Shown here one piece after another: positions 609 to 64,000 of a DNA stretch of 64,000 nucleotides. The notes beneath the pieces are model-generated. The model made no database searches and was not told the origin of the DNA. It was given only the letters and a program-made list of their open reading frames with translations. Origin of the DNA: Anaerolinea sp. (GTDB lineage: Bacteria > Chloroflexota > Anaerolineae > Anaerolineales > Anaerolineaceae). The position numbers were made by a program, and so were the translations under genes. The stretch is from positions 1 through 64,000 of the forward strand of contig DYEC01000009.1 in assembly GCA_020725865.1 (NCBI GenBank), given 5' to 3'. Position 1 is the stretch's first letter. Every line of letters begins with the position of its first letter.

Positions 609-1649
609 TCACTCCAGCTTCACCCCCTCGTTGGCAATTTCGTTATCGCTCACATAGCGCCTAGGCATTGAGAGAGAAGACCAGCCGCCGGCTTGCTGCA
701 GGCTGAATGGGTCAGTACCATGCCGCGCCGCAGAAGTTGCCCAGTAATGACGGCAGTCGTGCGCCGAAAGACCAGCGATTCCCAAAGCTTTTCCCAAATC
801 CTTGACGCGTTGCGTTATAGCGCGTTCACTCATACCTGGCCGTCCCAGTTTGCCGTTTTTGTGGCTGCGGCGGAGCAGGGAGCCCGCAGGTGGCAAGTCG
901 CTTGCCTGTGCATAAGCTTGAAGTGCGCTCAGCGTATCCTTCGTCAGACGGTGAGTTTGTTCCTTGCCGACCTTCGGACGGTAAAAACGAAGCAGTCCTT
1001 GAGTTAGATCAAGCTCTTCTACCACCAGCGCCGCCAGCTCTCCGACGCGTAGTCCGTGATCGAGCAACAGACACATCATTACGCGGTCGCGGCGGCCCTG
1101 CGGCGTATCCGGCTGCGCTTTGAGTGCGGCCGCCTGTTCGGGCGTTATCAGTACAGGGGTTGCCTTCTTCAAGCCGATCCGCTGACGCGGACGGCGGCTA
1201 TCAAGGCGGTGCTTCTCTTTTTGACTGTAGCTCTTCACCGCGCGAATCAGCGCGTAATCCTGCGGCGAAAGAACATTTGCCTGCATTGCCAGACGAGCAT
1301 AGGCCTTGATCGTGGATAGGCGCACATTGATAGAAGGAATGGCATACCCTTCGCGTAGTTGCCACTGGATGAACGCTTCAACCAAACCCCAGCTCATCCC
1401 CAGCCAGGCTTGCGGGTCATGCATCAGATTGCCGGGGTGAAGATTGAGCTGTGCCAGAAACTCCTGAAACAGATTTAGATCAGCCTGCTGACGGCGTAGC
1501 GTCTCATCGGCGCGACGCGCCTGATAGTCGGCAAAGCGACTGCGTGCCGCAATCTGATTAGCAATCTCCGCAGCTTTTGTTAGTTCGCCGGGCAACAACG
1601 GTTGCCAGGAAGGATTATCAGAGGGGGTGAGAAAAATTTTATCGGACAT
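609..1649 (-). CDS. Cre-like tyrosine site-specific recombinase
   Basis: A 346-residue tyrosine recombinase, close to Cre in length (343). An N-terminal helical SAM-like core-binding region (about 40-140) precedes the catalytic domain. Visible active-site residues are Arg201 (GLRVGE), a candidate Lys in PKVGKE (226-231), His297 and Arg300 (SAHDCRHYW), Trp323 (QAGGW) and Tyr332 (RRYVS). The Trp nine residues before the nucleophilic Tyr is the Cre arrangement (Trp315/Tyr324); most relatives have His there. It is a single gene with no excisionase, phage or transposon neighbours. Its start has no Shine-Dalgarno sequence, but a TATAAT box lies 6 nt upstream, implying a leaderless transcript. A lox-like palindrome lies directly upstream. 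Roles could be replicon dimer resolution, gene inversion or mobile-element integration. Confidence 0.93.
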   Translation of the reverse strand: MSDKIFLTPSDNPSWQPLLPGELTKAAEIANQIAARSRFADYQARRADETLRRQQADLNLFQEFLAQLNLHPGNLMHDPQAWLGMSWGLVEAFIQWQLREGYAIPSINVRLSTIKAYARLAMQANVLSPQDYALIRAVKSYSQKEKHRLDSRRPRQRIGLKKATPVLITPEQAAALKAQPDTPQGRRDRVMMCLLLDHGLRVGELAALVVEELDLTQGLLRFYRPKVGKEQTHRLTKDTLSALQAYAQASDLPPAGSLLRRSHKNGKLGRPGMSERAITQRVKDLGKALGIAGLSAHDCRHYWATSAARHGTDPFSLQQAGGWSSLSMPRRYVSDNEIANEGVKLE

Positions 1650-1655
1650 GCAATT

Positions 1656-1661
1656 ATTATA
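1656..1661 (-). promoter_or_regulatory. -10 box, predicted leaderless promoter of recombinase
   Basis: Read on the minus strand, a perfect TATAAT is followed by six bases and then the recombinase ATG at 1649. A normal initiation distance places the transcript start at or within the start codon, so the mRNA would be leaderless. No good -35 box is present at the expected spacing, where the lox-like palindrome lies instead, so this promoter may be weak or controlled by whatever binds the palindrome. Further upstream, TTTGTC (1722-1727), GACAAA (1735-1740) and TTGTCA (1751-1756) form a small cluster of inverted motifs of unknown meaning. Confidence 0.5.
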
Positions 1662-1663
1662 AC

Positions 1664-1698
1664 ATAACTTCTGATTTGTATAAATAATCAGAAGTTAT
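1664..1698. promoter_or_regulatory. lox-like palindrome, candidate recombinase target or operator
   Basis: A perfect 13-bp inverted repeat, ATAACTTCTGATT at 1664-1676 and AATCAGAAGTTAT at 1686-1698, flanks a 9-bp asymmetric centre (1677-1685). This matches the organisation of Cre/lox-family sites, which use two 13-bp arms around an 8-bp spacer, and the outer eight bases ATAACTTC are identical to those of loxP. It lies 15 bp upstream of the Cre-like recombinase start, overlapping where the -35 region should be. It could be the crossover site, an autoregulatory operator, or both. That the encoded recombinase binds it is inference. Confidence 0.7.
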
Positions 1699-1804: not shown

Positions 1805-3094
1805 TCAGCTTGAAGCATGCAATTTTTGCAGACGCAGTTCCAGTTGTTTACGATACTCATCCAAATCAATCCTGCGACGTGCCACACCGCTTTGCATGGC
1901 TGCCTGCGCGACCGCCGGTGCTTCCCATAGCAATACGCGTTCATCCAATGGCTTCGGCACAATATAATCCGGTCCGAATTTCAACTCTTTCAGTCCATAC
2001 GCCCGGAGCACCTGTTCAGTTACAGGTTCTTTTGCCAGCGCCGCCAGTGCATGTGCTGCTGCAATTTTCATCTCTTCGTTGATCGTTCGCGCCCGCACAT
2101 CCAGCGCGCCACGAAAGATGAAAGGAAAACCCAGTACGTTGTTGATCTGATTGGGATAATCTGAACGCCCTGTGCCAATAATCGCATCTGGACGCGCTTC
2201 CTTTGCCAGATCGTAGCGAATTTCCGGGTCGGGATTTGCCATAGCAAAGATTAACGGTGATTTTGCCATGCGCTTTACCATGTCCACACTTAAGACATTG
2301 GCAGCCGAAAGCCCATAAAAAACGTCTGCGCCACCAATTACATCTGCCAACGTGCGCGCATCAGTTTCGATCGCAAACGCTTCTTTGTATGGATCCATTT
2401 CTTCCATGCGTCCTTTATATACCACCCCCTTGATATCAACGAGAATGATATTTTCTTTTTTGACACCCAACAGAACTGCCATTTTGGTACACGCAATACC
2501 CGCTGCACCTGCGCCGCAGACAACCAGCCTGACCTCATCAATGCGTTTACCAACCAGTTCAAGCCCGTTCAACAAAGCTGCGCCGACAATGATCGCCGTG
2601 CCATGCTGATCATCATGAAAGACAGGGATATCTACTGTGCGTCTGAGGGTTTCCTCTATGTAAAAACACTCCGGTGCTTTGATATCTTCCAGATTGATTC
2701 CACCGAAGGTCGGAGCGATCAATTGCACCACGCGGATGACTTCATCAGGGTCATGGCTATCCACTTCAATATCAAAGACATCCACATCGGCAAAGCGCTT
2801 AAATAATACTGCCTTACCCTCCATAACCGGCTTTGAAGCCAGCGCCCCACGATCACCCAATCCAAGAATAGCCGTTCCGTTTGATACGACTGCCACCAGA
2901 TTGCCCTTTGCTGTGTATTCATAGGCGTCTAAAGGATTTTTGGCTATTTCCAACACAGGTTGAGCTACACCCGGTGTATAAGCCAGTGCAAGGTCTTCCT
3001 GAGTTTGTAAAGGTTTTGTTGGCATCACACAGATTTTGCCCGGTATTCCCCCCTTGCAATGGTAATTCAATGCTGCCTCACGTAAGTTGTTCAT
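1805..3094 (-). CDS. Malic enzyme (malate dehydrogenase, oxaloacetate-decarboxylating)
   Basis: A 429-residue short bacterial malic enzyme that would convert malate to pyruvate and CO2 with reduction of NAD(P) in the cytoplasm. The malate-binding half shows YTPGVA with catalytic Tyr39 and the MEGKAVLFK segment with Lys94. The metal-binding region is NLEDIKAPE and FHDDQHGTA (159-167), and the Rossmann nucleotide motif GAGAAG is at 194-199. Length fits the roughly 400-residue class without a C-terminal phosphotransacetylase-like domain. The cofactor preference is not evident. The gene stands alone, with the recombinase downstream on the same strand across a 155-bp gap, and no obvious terminator between them. 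Confidence 0.96.
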
Positions 3095-55578: not shown

Positions 55579-55611
55579 GGGTTCTTGCGGCTCAATAAAC
55601 CGCAAGAACCC
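55579..55611 (+). terminator. Strong hairpin between AOR and maturase genes
   Basis: GGGTTCTTGCGG (55579-55590) and CCGCAAGAACCC (55600-55611) form a perfect 12-bp stem with a CTCAATAAA loop, followed by TCTTATTCC. It would stop part of the transcription after the AOR gene, so the maturase and MoaD-like genes are made at a lower level. It may also protect the AOR mRNA 3' end. Confidence 0.85.
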
Positions 55612-60032: not shown

Positions 60033-63000
60033 CTATTCGACCTTGACTAGCACCGCCCGCACCGCCACGCGCCAGTGATAACGATTTTGAGTCTCATCGT
60101 ATCCTTGGCAAGTTAATAAAGTCAACCATGGATATTCCTCATGCTTCAGGGCACGCAAGTCATTGGGATCCAATACCAACACCTCACGCACTTCATAAAC
60201 ATATCGCTGGCCATAAGCCCACAAAATGATTGGGTCGCCCCAGTACATGGTATTGAGGTTAACAAAAGGACCAGGCTTACCGTTCGGTAAATAGACATGC
60301 CCAGTGATCACAGAATTGCCCGTCCAGCTCGGAAAAGCCGTGCCTTCCAGCCAACCAGCCTGATCCCAAAGCCAGCGCACATCCCAGTCATTTCCAGACA
60401 AGGGGACACCAATAACGGGTAACTTGGCGTTCAATCTGGGTATCTCCACCCATAGCTCGCCAGTGCCAAAATACACCTTCTCGGCAGGTTGTTCAGGCAA
60501 CGCGCTCACCCGTCCCGGAGCGAAGCCCGTCTCTGGCAATCCAGGAACTGTCAATACAACATTAGCCTGCACACCATAGACATTGATATTGCTACCCGGA
60601 TCATAATATCGTTCAGTAGAGAGAGAATTATAGGCAGACTGCGGATTGCTAACATCCCCAGGCAAACTGCTCCATTCCAGCGCAGCAGTATTGGTAACCG
60701 AAGACCCTGCCGATAGATTACCCACGCGAGCCCGGAACTGCACGATCGCCTCCGTACGGTTACCCCCTGTCAGCAATGGGAATTCATCCCAGCGGACGCG
60801 CAAAAGCGGCGCAGCACTCTCATCTGTTACCCCGCCAGCAGGACCGCTGACGACCGTTAACGAGCCAGGAATGTAAGTCAGACCAGAAGGCAAACGGTCA
60901 GTAAGTAACACATTAAAAGCATCCACATCACTGCGGCTTGTGTGGCGAAGCGTCAATGTAAAAGTTACCACCGAACCAGGCGTCACCACCGAACGGTCAA
61001 CCGTCTTGCGCAACTCTAGATCCGGCTCGACAATGCGCACGTCCGCCGCTGAAGCGGAAAGGTTACCGCTGTCCCACTTCAATCTAACAGCATTGTTCAG
61101 CATAACACCACGCCGGTTCTCCAGGTTATTCAAAACAACAACTCGGTAACGCACTATGACTGTTCCATTGTCTGCACCGCTATTACTAACATCTCCCAGA
61201 TTGAACGTGACCAATCGTCCAGCGTCCGCCAGATTGGCACTGCCCGCCGGCTCAGTCGTTACAGTTGGATTGGTCGGCGCATTACATACAGCATTAAAAC
61301 CGCCTGGCAGGCTTGTGGCAACATCTATCGAAGAAGACGTGATGCGCTCGCAATTCACAAATGCCAGACCGCGCTCCAGCGTATCGGTCAAGACAAGACC
61401 GGGCATCGTGCCGCCTGCCGGGACGGTAAAAACAACTTCATAGGTAAGAATCTCGCCAATAGCAACGGTCGGGAGAGGAGTGAAAGTCTGGTTCGTCGCA
61501 ACCAGTGTCTTGTTCAGGTCACTATTGGGCAAAGTGATAACACTATCTGTGTCCTCAGCGTCGTTATCACTAGGATTGGAGTCATCCCCATTACTGCCGT
61601 CATCTTTTACATGAGCTCGGTTGAGAATAGAATCACCGGAAAAAGGATCGTCAATCTGAATCGTGATGGTTCGAGTAACGGCAGACGCACCAGCGGCAAG
61701 GTCAAACACCGGCCAAGTCACCTGACGGGTGACTGAGTCATACGTCCCGCCATCACTTGCAGAAACGAAAGTCGTATTATCTGGAATAGTATCCGTCACC
61801 ACCACGCCGGTAGAATCCTGCGTACCAGTGTTGCGGATGGTCAAAGTATAAGTCAGAACTTGTCCGGGCGAGACAACCGTGACACCATCATCTTTTGTGA
61901 TTTGCAAATCGGGCACAGCAACGACCGGCGTATCTTCATCATCGCGATTATCAGATAGGTTAACATCGCCGCCGTTTGCGCCATCATCAGCGATGGAAAC
62001 GCTGTTATCAATCTGGATAACGCCAGTTGGCAGGGGATTGCTCACAGTGACAGCAAAGTTGATTGATCCGCTAGCACCCGAGTTAAGTGCACCGACAGTA
62101 AACGTACAGGTCGTACCTGCAGGACTGCCGTCCGGGCAGGACCAGCCAGCAGTGCTTACCCCAGCATTGAAAATGGTGTTGGGCGGGACGATCTCGGTGA
62201 TCACAACACCGCTGGCATTTCTATTGCCGGCATTGGTATAGGACAAAGTGTACACAATCACACCACCGGCTGAGCTCGTTATATTTCCATCATCCTTGAC
62301 AACACGCAGGTCAACCGCCGTAAACGTTACATCCTGTCTAGAAGAATCGGCATAATCATTCAATCCCCCAGCACCATCACCACCGTTGCGTTCGTTCGGA
62401 TCCACACCAGTCAAGGAAGACCAAAGCATGTTGACTGTGTTGGAAATCACATCGCCAGGATTGACAGGCGGGGAAACAACAACAGCCGAATACTGAACAG
62501 TTAGGACACAACCCAAAGGCAGAGAGGCTATTGTCAAGCTAATATGATTACCCGCGCTTGAGTCCGTGATCGTACCAGCACAGCCAAGTGGAGAAGCGGA
62601 GACAACTGGGGAACCAGCGACACTAACACTATCAGGCAATATATCGCTAACGCTTAAATCGAAAGCATCGGCCGAACTGGCCGGCAGATGGCTAATGGTC
62701 AGCGTATAAGTGAAAGTCTGTCCAACTCCAGGGATAGGATCATTGACCGTTTTTGCAATATCCAGCTCAGGCTCGATGACATTAACGCTAACGCTATCCG
62801 TCGTCTGTGCTCCGCTGCCAATCTGGAAGGCGGCACTGTTGGTCAACGTTCCTCCGTTCTGATTGCCAGCCTCATTGAGCAAGACAGCCTGCAGACAGAT
62901 AACAAAGGTGTCGTTATTCGGATCGTTATCCCCAACAACCGAAATAGCGCCAAATTGAATAGTCACGTCGCTACCACTACCGCCAGGCGCAGTAATTGTG

Positions 63001-64000
63001 GGCAGCGGAACACTCCCGTTGAAACTGGCTGTTAAGCCGCTACCACAAACACCGCCAGTCGTTGTAACAACCTGTAGTGAACCACTAACATACGCCATAC
63101 CCACTGGCAGGTCATCTACAATGGTCAACGCAGGAGTCGTCCCTTCGGGCAGAGTAACGTAAAGCCCAAAGGTAGCTACTTCCCCTATGGCAAGCTGATT
63201 ACCCCCGCTATGCACCGCGGATGTGCCTTCAAGAGTCTTGTTGTAGGAAGCGCCCACAGCTTGGAATGACGTTGTATCGATAGCAGCGTAGTCATTTAGA
63301 CCACCCCCCGGGCCATCACTACCCGTGCGCTCGTTGGCGTTGCCCCCGGCGGTTGAAGTCCAGGCAAGATAACCTGTGTTCAGAATGGTCTGTCCAGGTG
63401 TTACACCGCCGTTAATAGTGACATTGTAGGTAATGGTAGCTGAGCCTCCAAGCGGTATTTGAGCAATCACCAAATCCACTTGGTTGCCAGCAGAATTGTC
63501 GCTCACGCCTGAAGCGCCGCCCGCCAGCGAGACATTCACCGAGCTAAGATCAAGCGCAAGTTCTGCCGGCAATGTATCTATGAAATTCACGTCATAGGCT
63601 GTGATGGTGCTGAAAGCATCATGCTGGATAATAACCTGATACGTAACCACACCACCAGCATCCAGGGGAGAGGGCAGGGAAATGATAGACTTATCTAGTG
63701 TTAGAACTGGTTCAGCAATTGTAATATTATCGCTATCAGAAATGCTCTTAAGCGAACCAAGCGCATCCGTATAGGATAACGTAGCGTTATTGGTAAGTGT
63801 GACACCGTCTTGATTGCCAATTGCATTCGCAACGATGACATCATACTCGATTGTCACCGGGCTGGAGGAGACAACCGCATCCCCAAACGTCCAGGTCAAG
63901 GTAACGGAACTAGAGCCGTCATTGGGCGGGGAAACATTGAAAGTGGGCAATGGGCTGATACCGTTGCTGACACTTTGTGAACCAATCTTGTAAATCAATC
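60033..64000 (-). CDS. DUF11-repeat surface protein with LPETG motif and C-terminal sortase domain, partial
   Basis: At least 1321 residues, with the N terminus beyond the right edge. Most of it is tandem DUF11-type beta domains (recurring VxYTLTxxN, LPxGLxYxxGS and DxDTV elements), typical of long extracellular stalks. Near the end it carries LPETGFAPG (codons of LPETG at 60525-60539), then a sortase catalytic domain: IPRLNAKLPVIGVP, GNSVITGHVY with the His (60297-60299), LTLLTCQGY with the Cys (60108-60110), and HWRVAVRAVL with the Arg. No hydrophobic tail follows the sortase. A sorting signal directly before a sortase in one chain is unusual. It would be exported, with the sortase acting in cis or on neighbours. 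Confidence 0.9.
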   Translation of the reverse strand, partial: LIYKIGSQSVSNGISPLPTFNVSPPNDGSSSVTLTWTFGDAVVSSSPVTIEYDVIVANAIGNQDGVTLTNNATLSYTDALGSLKSISDSDNITIAEPVLTLDKSIISLPSPLDAGGVVTYQVIIQHDAFSTITAYDVNFIDTLPAELALDLSSVNVSLAGGASGVSDNSAGNQVDLVIAQIPLGGSATITYNVTINGGVTPGQTILNTGYLAWTSTAGGNANERTGSDGPGGGLNDYAAIDTTSFQAVGASYNKTLEGTSAVHSGGNQLAIGEVATFGLYVTLPEGTTPALTIVDDLPVGMAYVSGSLQVVTTTGGVCGSGLTASFNGSVPLPTITAPGGSGSDVTIQFGAISVVGDNDPNNDTFVICLQAVLLNEAGNQNGGTLTNSAAFQIGSGAQTTDSVSVNVIEPELDIAKTVNDPIPGVGQTFTYTLTISHLPASSADAFDLSVSDILPDSVSVAGSPVVSASPLGCAGTITDSSAGNHISLTIASLPLGCVLTVQYSAVVVSPPVNPGDVISNTVNMLWSSLTGVDPNERNGGDGAGGLNDYADSSRQDVTFTAVDLRVVKDDGNITSSAGGVIVYTLSYTNAGNRNASGVVITEIVPPNTIFNAGVSTAGWSCPDGSPAGTTCTFTVGALNSGASGSINFAVTVSNPLPTGVIQIDNSVSIADDGANGGDVNLSDNRDDEDTPVVAVPDLQITKDDGVTVVSPGQVLTYTLTIRNTGTQDSTGVVVTDTIPDNTTFVSASDGGTYDSVTRQVTWPVFDLAAGASAVTRTITIQIDDPFSGDSILNRAHVKDDGSNGDDSNPSDNDAEDTDSVITLPNSDLNKTLVATNQTFTPLPTVAIGEILTYEVVFTVPAGGTMPGLVLTDTLERGLAFVNCERITSSSIDVATSLPGGFNAVCNAPTNPTVTTEPAGSANLADAGRLVTFNLGDVSNSGADNGTVIVRYRVVVLNNLENRRGVMLNNAVRLKWDSGNLSASAADVRIVEPDLELRKTVDRSVVTPGSVVTFTLTLRHTSRSDVDAFNVLLTDRLPSGLTYIPGSLTVVSGPAGGVTDESAAPLLRVRWDEFPLLTGGNRTEAIVQFRARVGNLSAGSSVTNTAALEWSSLPGDVSNPQSAYNSLSTERYYDPGSNINVYGVQANVVLTVPGLPETGFAPGRVSALPEQPAEKVYFGTGELWVEIPRLNAKLPVIGVPLSGNDWDVRWLWDQAGWLEGTAFPSWTGNSVITGHVYLPNGKPGPFVNLNTMYWGDPIILWAYGQRYVYEVREVLVLDPNDLRALKHEEYPWLTLLTCQGYDETQNRYHWRVAVRAVLVKVE

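Follow-up and report, generated by a model that had tools for sequence, protein, structure and literature searches.

The question raised by this locus is whether a tyrosine recombinase gene and the perfect palindrome lying beside it form a recombination system of their own, and which replicon such a system would serve. Dimer resolution is, to our knowledge, little known outside Proteobacteria and Firmicutes. The window, which is the whole stretch of 64,000 nucleotides analysed here, corresponds to G000:C7:1-64000 of the source assembly (3.12 Mb, 26 contigs; Anaerolineaceae, to judge from its relatives), where contig C7 has a length of 164.6 kb. An earlier note on this DNA had read the locus as a new Cre-type system, apparently chromosomal and without phage genes.

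The recombinase and the palindromic site

The open reading frame of the recombinase (Table 1) begins with an ATG codon, and its product displays the Pfam domain Phage_integrase (6.6e-26) preceded by an N-terminal SAM-like domain. The catalytic residues are Arg201, Lys226, His297, Arg300, Trp323 and Tyr332. These six residues, which constitute the full R-K-H-R-(H/W)-Y set, are 100% invariant in an alignment of 55 homologues. As the earlier note had described for this protein of 346 amino acids, Trp323 and Tyr332 are separated by a gap of nine residues and the motif QAGGW is present. Trp323 replaces the second catalytic histidine and is invariant in the family; a tryptophan at this position is found in other tyrosine recombinases besides those of the Cre/lox family. 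The NCBIfam models of XerC and XerD (TIGR02224 and TIGR02225) give scores of 77.6 and 66.6 bits on this protein, below their respective cut-offs of 335 and 330.

The palindrome, composed of the arms and centre ATAACTTCTGATT-TGTATAAAT-AATCAGAAGTTAT, is localized upstream of the recombinase, 14 bases from its start codon, and the perfect 13-9-13 structure noticed earlier is confirmed. It is the sole perfect inverted repeat with 13-bp arms (spacer of 4 to 12) in the window, and no such repeat was obtained in 40 Markov-simulated windows. The window contains a single copy of the complete site, and a search of the genome for its 21-bp core at up to 3 mismatches gives one occurrence. A consensus scan places a promoter-like motif over the site, at a score that is not above shuffle expectation; the promoter and terminator scan and the search against Rfam revealed nothing exceeding expectation. 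Judging from this overlap, binding of the recombinase to the site may also autoregulate the gene. A second long perfect inverted repeat (12-9-12, beginning with GGGTTCTTGCGG), GC-rich and intergenic, is found at positions 55579-55611 of the window and is probably a terminator.

Table 1. Features of the recombinase locus and related features of the source genome (positions in the window unless a contig is given).
Feature	Position	Strand	Basis
Tyrosine recombinase, 346 aa	609..1649	-	ORF and translation, Pfam PF00589
Putative recombination site (dif/lox-like), perfect 13-9-13 inverted repeat	1664..1698	.	Sequence, homologous single-copy sites, 36-site alignment
Possible sigma-70 promoter of the recombinase, TTTATA-17-TATAAT, overlapping the site	1656..1684	-	Consensus scan only
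Malic enzyme, neighbour, not part of the system	1805..3094	-	Homologues near recombinase elsewhere
Core Xer in the source genome	G000:C10:348913-349951 (L264)		

Co-occurrence of the gene and the site in Chloroflexota

The set of relatives was composed of 101 genomes, 15 with the recombinase and 86 without. Homologues displaying 53-68% identity were detected in 14 of 100 relatives. At six of the loci examined first, including that of the window, a related palindrome is present directly upstream of the recombinase, and the pattern derived from these six palindromes was searched in the remaining genomes. A single site was found at 3.9 kb from the gene in G031, 1.5 kb in G026, 3.7 kb in G042, about 12 kb in G009 and 2.7 kb in G054, while in G008 and G059 the site and the gene are on different contigs, as they are in G030. 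The distance between the two elements ranges therefore from about 50 bp upstream up to 12 kb, or the two are separated on distinct contigs. Given such distances, and the cases with separate contigs, the site is more than an operator and would act in trans. The earlier note had held that absence of the palindrome upstream of close homologues would speak against the pairing. Such absence was observed in several genomes, yet the site is present elsewhere in each of them, and this strengthens the reading as a recombination site.

The 36 sites recovered align without gaps (alignment A1). The sequences CYGATT and AATCRG are nearly invariant in the arms and the centre is variable, as expected for the crossover region of a tyrosine recombinase. 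Changes in the arms are compensated, with 82% of positions paired versus at most 43.5% for slid partners. A covariance model detects one strong site (E<1e-6) in 14 of the 15 genomes containing the recombinase and in none of the 86 others (Fisher P 3e-16), and the site of Thermanaerothrix daxensis (G030) is recovered even though it was left out of the training. In G053, a genome 88% complete, the gene is present and the covariance model does not detect a site. The weak matches (E from 1e-4 to 1) observed in genomes devoid of the gene resemble ordinary hairpins. G058 contains a recombinase fragment of 53 amino acids (G058:C59:83178-83336) and a site core with 2 mismatches (L058, G058:C5:42653-42673); these might be the remains of a system in decay, though the covariance model gives this site no support.

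A set of 48 named loci spans the phylum Chloroflexota (Anaerolineae, Caldilineae, Ktedonobacteria and a Herpetosiphon-like MAG), and in most of the complete loci among them the gene has a site nearby. When 298 genomes were drawn from the whole class, four matched besides the source genome, and in three of these the site directly adjoins the recombinase. The inheritance of the pair tracks genera (g9, g12, g31 and g32 are complete), and the distribution of the recombinase is patchy (15/101 genomes), unlike that of a core chromosomal Xer. The recombinase and the palindrome are a matched and conserved pair, which occurs throughout Chloroflexota: it is carried by plasmids, by some of the chromosomes and by a small number of phages.

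A separate core Xer/dif system

A second single-Xer system was detected in these genomes. This core system of Anaerolineales has a recombinase of about 331 amino acids, present in 67 of the 101 relatives, and immediately upstream of the gene a 28-bp dif of its own (type TTTCGATAA-GTATTA-TTATCATAAACAT). In Leptolinea sp. HRD-7, the skew of the chromosome switches near 2.896 Mb and this core dif is localized at that shift, near 2.9117 Mb. No protein of the 101 relatives is above the NCBIfam cut-offs for XerC or XerD, and the core Xer too stays below them, so that the curated family names are of no use here. The window-type recombinase is additional to the core Xer in 9 of the 15 genomes, including the source genome. 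Neither the core Xer nor its dif was found in G013, G030, G053, G031 and G054, and in G057 the core dif is present and the core Xer gene was not found. The possibility that the window recombinase is itself the core chromosomal Xer of the lineage was dropped once this different core Xer, with its own dif, had emerged.

Position of the site and type of replicon

The maximum of the cumulative GC skew marks the replication terminus. The distance from the site to this maximum is 1.5 kb in G030:C1, 2.7 kb in G042:C1, 3.3 kb in G011:C12, 5.9 kb in G044:C2 and 13.5 kb in G013:C9 (a contig of 1.34 Mb). Five of the six large contigs tested consequently have the site within 13.5 kb of the skew maximum (combined P 7e-5), the exception being G026:C16, where it is 84 kb away. 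G044:C2 corresponds to a plasmid of Leptolinea sp. HRD-7 that is complete and circular (212,187 bp, AP024711.1). Its annotation lists the recombinase as a hypothetical protein (hrd7_33480), and a Soj/ParA gene is localized at the skew minimum, near 190 kb. Orthologues of this ParA (67%) share their contigs with the recombinase and the site in G042 and G026. The site is 1.4 kb from the point opposite ParA in G026, 6.1 kb in G042 and 11.3 kb in G044 (combined P 0.004), distances that assume circularity of the contigs G026:C16 and G042:C1, the HRD-7 plasmid being circular. In G013, the site (986.6 kb) lies between two tRNA genes, located at 984.4 and 994.6 kb, and is therefore chromosomal in this genome.

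Concerning the source genome, contig C7 contains none of the 39 genomic tRNAs (2.05 expected, P 0.13). It encodes two ParA-like proteins, and one of these genes, at 80.6 kb, would, on a circular contig, be 3.3 kb off the point opposite the site (P 0.04, uncorrected for the choice between two candidates). The neighbouring malic-enzyme gene has homologues on the HRD-7 plasmid and on G011:C12, in both cases at 4-6 kb from the recombinase. The cumulative skew of the window has its maximum at 9.7 kb, and the contig end lies 1.7 kb from the site. The absence of tRNAs, the ParA genes and the malic-enzyme gene, clues which are individually weak, together indicate that C7 is probably a secondary replicon rather than part of the chromosome. 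The chromosomal location that had been supposed for the locus is probably wrong, given the tRNA-free contig, its two ParA-like genes and the kin on a 212-kb plasmid.

Two further regions of the window can be mentioned. A CRISPR array (positions 2-332) with five copies of the 37-bp repeat GTTGCACCCCCTTCGATCCGTTTGAGGATACTGAAAT is located at the contig end; the HRD-7 plasmid bears a type I-C CRISPR-Cas locus. At positions 60033-63998, the minus strand encodes a large repetitive surface protein in which, by eye, an LPETG-like motif is followed by a sortase-like C-terminal part, an arrangement unusual in Chloroflexota.

Proposed function

The sequences show conserved catalytic residues, a single site for each gene, arms that are conserved around a centre that varies, and a position at the terminus. 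In the best reading, the gene and the palindrome are probably a single-recombinase system of the dif type that resolves dimers of a circular replicon, working like Xer/dif or Cre/lox. Points against this reading are the patchy distribution, the G026 exception in the skew comparison, the G053 genome with a gene and no detected site, and the homologues on phages and on the L129 element described below. We infer binding, cleavage, dimer resolution and any link with FtsK. The arms of each site would be occupied by two recombinase monomers. Once two sister circles have been joined by homologous recombination, two sites would synapse, the Arg-Lys-His-Arg-Trp-Tyr active sites would cut and exchange strands within the centre of about 6-9 bp, and two monomeric circles would be released. 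Resolution would probably take place near division, because the site sits where the replication arms meet.

In Anaerolineaceae that retain the core Xer/dif, the system appears to serve a plasmid or chromid of about 160-290 kb, which is likely also the case in the source genome. In the lineages without a core Xer (Thermanaerothrix and 'Ch9'), the system would probably serve the chromosome, with its site at the terminus. The observations are, on one hand, a site at the chromosomal terminus and no core Xer in G013 and G030 and, on the other hand, a plasmid-borne pair in Leptolinea HRD-7. The family is thus likely a resolution system of large plasmids that serves the chromosome instead of the core Xer in some lineages. 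The terminal position and the missing core Xer in Thermanaerothrix and 'Ch9' suggest a replacement. A plasmid-type, self-encoded resolution system may have come to occupy the terminus of the chromosome in some Anaerolineaceae and taken the place of the core Xer/dif there, while coexisting with it in sisters; we give this somewhat less than an even chance. This reading covers Thermanaerothrix, 'Ch9' and possibly the genus of G031 and G054, the sister genera having both systems on different replicons, and the exchange would presumably have gone from plasmid to chromosome. If true, it would be a natural swap of the machinery resolving chromosome dimers.

Relationship to Cre and alternative explanations

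The resemblance to Cre noticed in the earlier note is real in several respects: a similar length, the tryptophan replacing histidine, QAGGW, a symmetric site and carriage by plasmids and phages. Searches with the family profile give E-values of 1e-17 for XerA, 3e-14 for XerD, 6e-7 for XerH and 1.5e-5 for Cre, so that XerA and XerD outrank Cre by 9-12 orders of magnitude. In the phylogenetic tree, all members of the family group together (100/99), separately from E. coli XerC and XerD and from the core Xer; Cre joins it at 94/93 on a branch of length 5, a placement that is unreliable. The AlphaFold2 model of the recombinase (pLDDT 83.6, weak around Tyr332) has Cre among its top fold matches (Z 17.8), between XerA, which is the best (Z 19.2), and XerH (Z 15.8), with high rmsd due to domain orientation. 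The arms of the window site do begin with ATAACTTC like those of loxP, a sequence present in 3 of the 36 sites (the window site and two others). The conserved core CYGATT is absent from loxP, no arms homologous to loxP were found among the sites, and the layout of the window site is 13-9-13, not 13-8-13. On these comparisons the likeness to loxP is coincidental and the recombinase is, by sequence, nearer to XerA and XerD than to Cre. Common descent with P1 Cre, as a true member of the Cre/loxP family, is accordingly very unlikely. From the earlier proposal of a new Cre-type system, the self-owned palindromic site and the conserved pair are retained, as is a likely Cre/lox-like mode of action, with one recombinase and a symmetric site resolving replicon dimers; the kinship with Cre/loxP is not.

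The recombinase could also be the integrase of a phage or integrative element inserting at a dif-like site, or a remnant of one, and the palindrome its att site. Two IMG/VR contigs, L155/L338 (IMGVR_UViG_3300037755_001214) and L156/L339 (IMGVR_UViG_3300022670_001348), carry terminase genes, the recombinase and the site just upstream of it, so the absence of phage genes stated in the earlier note is true of the window, where none was seen, and does not extend to the family. L338 and L339 are possibly phage-plasmids or phages exploiting the host site. A search of IMG/VR with the site pattern as an exact motif gave no match. In Chloroflexi bacterium CFX6, two dif/lox-like sites with different centres bound a 5.5-kb stretch containing the recombinase and a Prim-Pol primase (L129:9915-15515, SZPG01000043.1), possibly an integrative element; an att-flanked gene is thus seen in this distant member and not at the window locus. 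The module, like Cre, is also used by phages and perhaps by integrative elements, and some members, given the phage homologues and the L129 element, may serve integration or cyclisation. Against an att site, the window and its near relatives have a single site with no adjoining mobile genes, linkage between the gene and the site is not constant, the site is localized at the terminus of the replicon and inheritance follows genera. Moreover, no homologue was detected among 50,697 phage records (INPHARED). We consider this explanation, the main rival, improbable, and nothing at the window locus supports it. A purely autoregulatory operator, bound at the promoter by the recombinase or another regulator with no recombination, would agree with the overlap of TTTATA-17-TATAAT and the palindrome and with the same placement of the site in several homologues. 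It is hardly credible when the site, conserved and present once per genome, is 1.5-12 kb from the gene in five genomes (G031, G026, G042, G009, G054) and on another contig in three (G030, G059, G008). Finally, a palindrome between two genes of the same strand could be the terminator hairpin of the malic-enzyme gene or a product of chance. Its stem is AT-rich with no T-run on the gene strand, it is missing from the terminator scan, none of the 40 simulated windows yields its like, and its conservation next to recombinases in other gene contexts refutes this idea, whose probability is negligible.

Comparison with known systems

Dimer resolution by a recombinase and its own site is the reading retained, and the window pair is probably, by its sequences, related to the Cre/lox and Xer/dif systems and has not been named before. 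No description of the family was found in the open-access papers searched. The pair is now defined for testing, with a protein, a 35-bp site and about 50 orthologues. It offers a natural experiment on how resolution systems are exchanged between plasmids and chromosomes, and its new symmetric site, unlike loxP, makes it a candidate recombination tool. A large survey of dif sites included only three Chloroflexota, all Dehalococcoides, and urged a search for alternative machinery (PMC3025954).

Single-recombinase systems are known with XerS, XerH, XerA and XerL (PMC5357621, PMC9765430). XerL/dif of Legionellales, like the window system, has a single tyrosine recombinase, an uninterrupted inverted repeat near a GC-skew shift and a site linked or unlinked to the gene, with arms of 10-12 bp versus 13 here; the plasmid-borne XerL gene of Coxiella is a further likeness (PMC9765430). 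XerL belongs to another lineage and is the sole Xer reported in Legionellales (PMC9765430), whereas most carriers here have a separate core Xer/dif in addition. XerS/difSL and XerH/difH also consist of one recombinase of about 350 amino acids with a site often beside the gene, at the terminus, but difSL and difH have imperfect asymmetric arms and centres of 6-11 bp (PMC5357621), and the profile match to XerH is just 6e-7. Archaeal XerA/dif, a single recombinase in a linked or unlinked module, provides the nearest solved structures by sequence and fold; it differs by a 28-bp dif with an 11-6-11 layout and by being chromosomal (PMC5357621).

P1 Cre/loxP shares the self-encoded recombinase, the symmetric 13-bp arms and the resolution of plasmid dimers, and differs by an 8-bp spacer, another arm sequence and a distant protein. 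Its loxP lies opposite the plasmid origin (PMC11724359), as the site lies opposite the par locus here. It is established in enterobacteria that mid-size plasmids encode their own resolution and that large plasmids have Xer sites opposite the origin under the control of FtsK (PMC11724359). The FtsK-dependent Xer sites of enterobacterial megaplasmids resemble the window system as dimer-resolution sites opposite the origin of large plasmids; these megaplasmids use the XerCD of the chromosome (PMC11724359), whereas the window-type replicon encodes its own recombinase.
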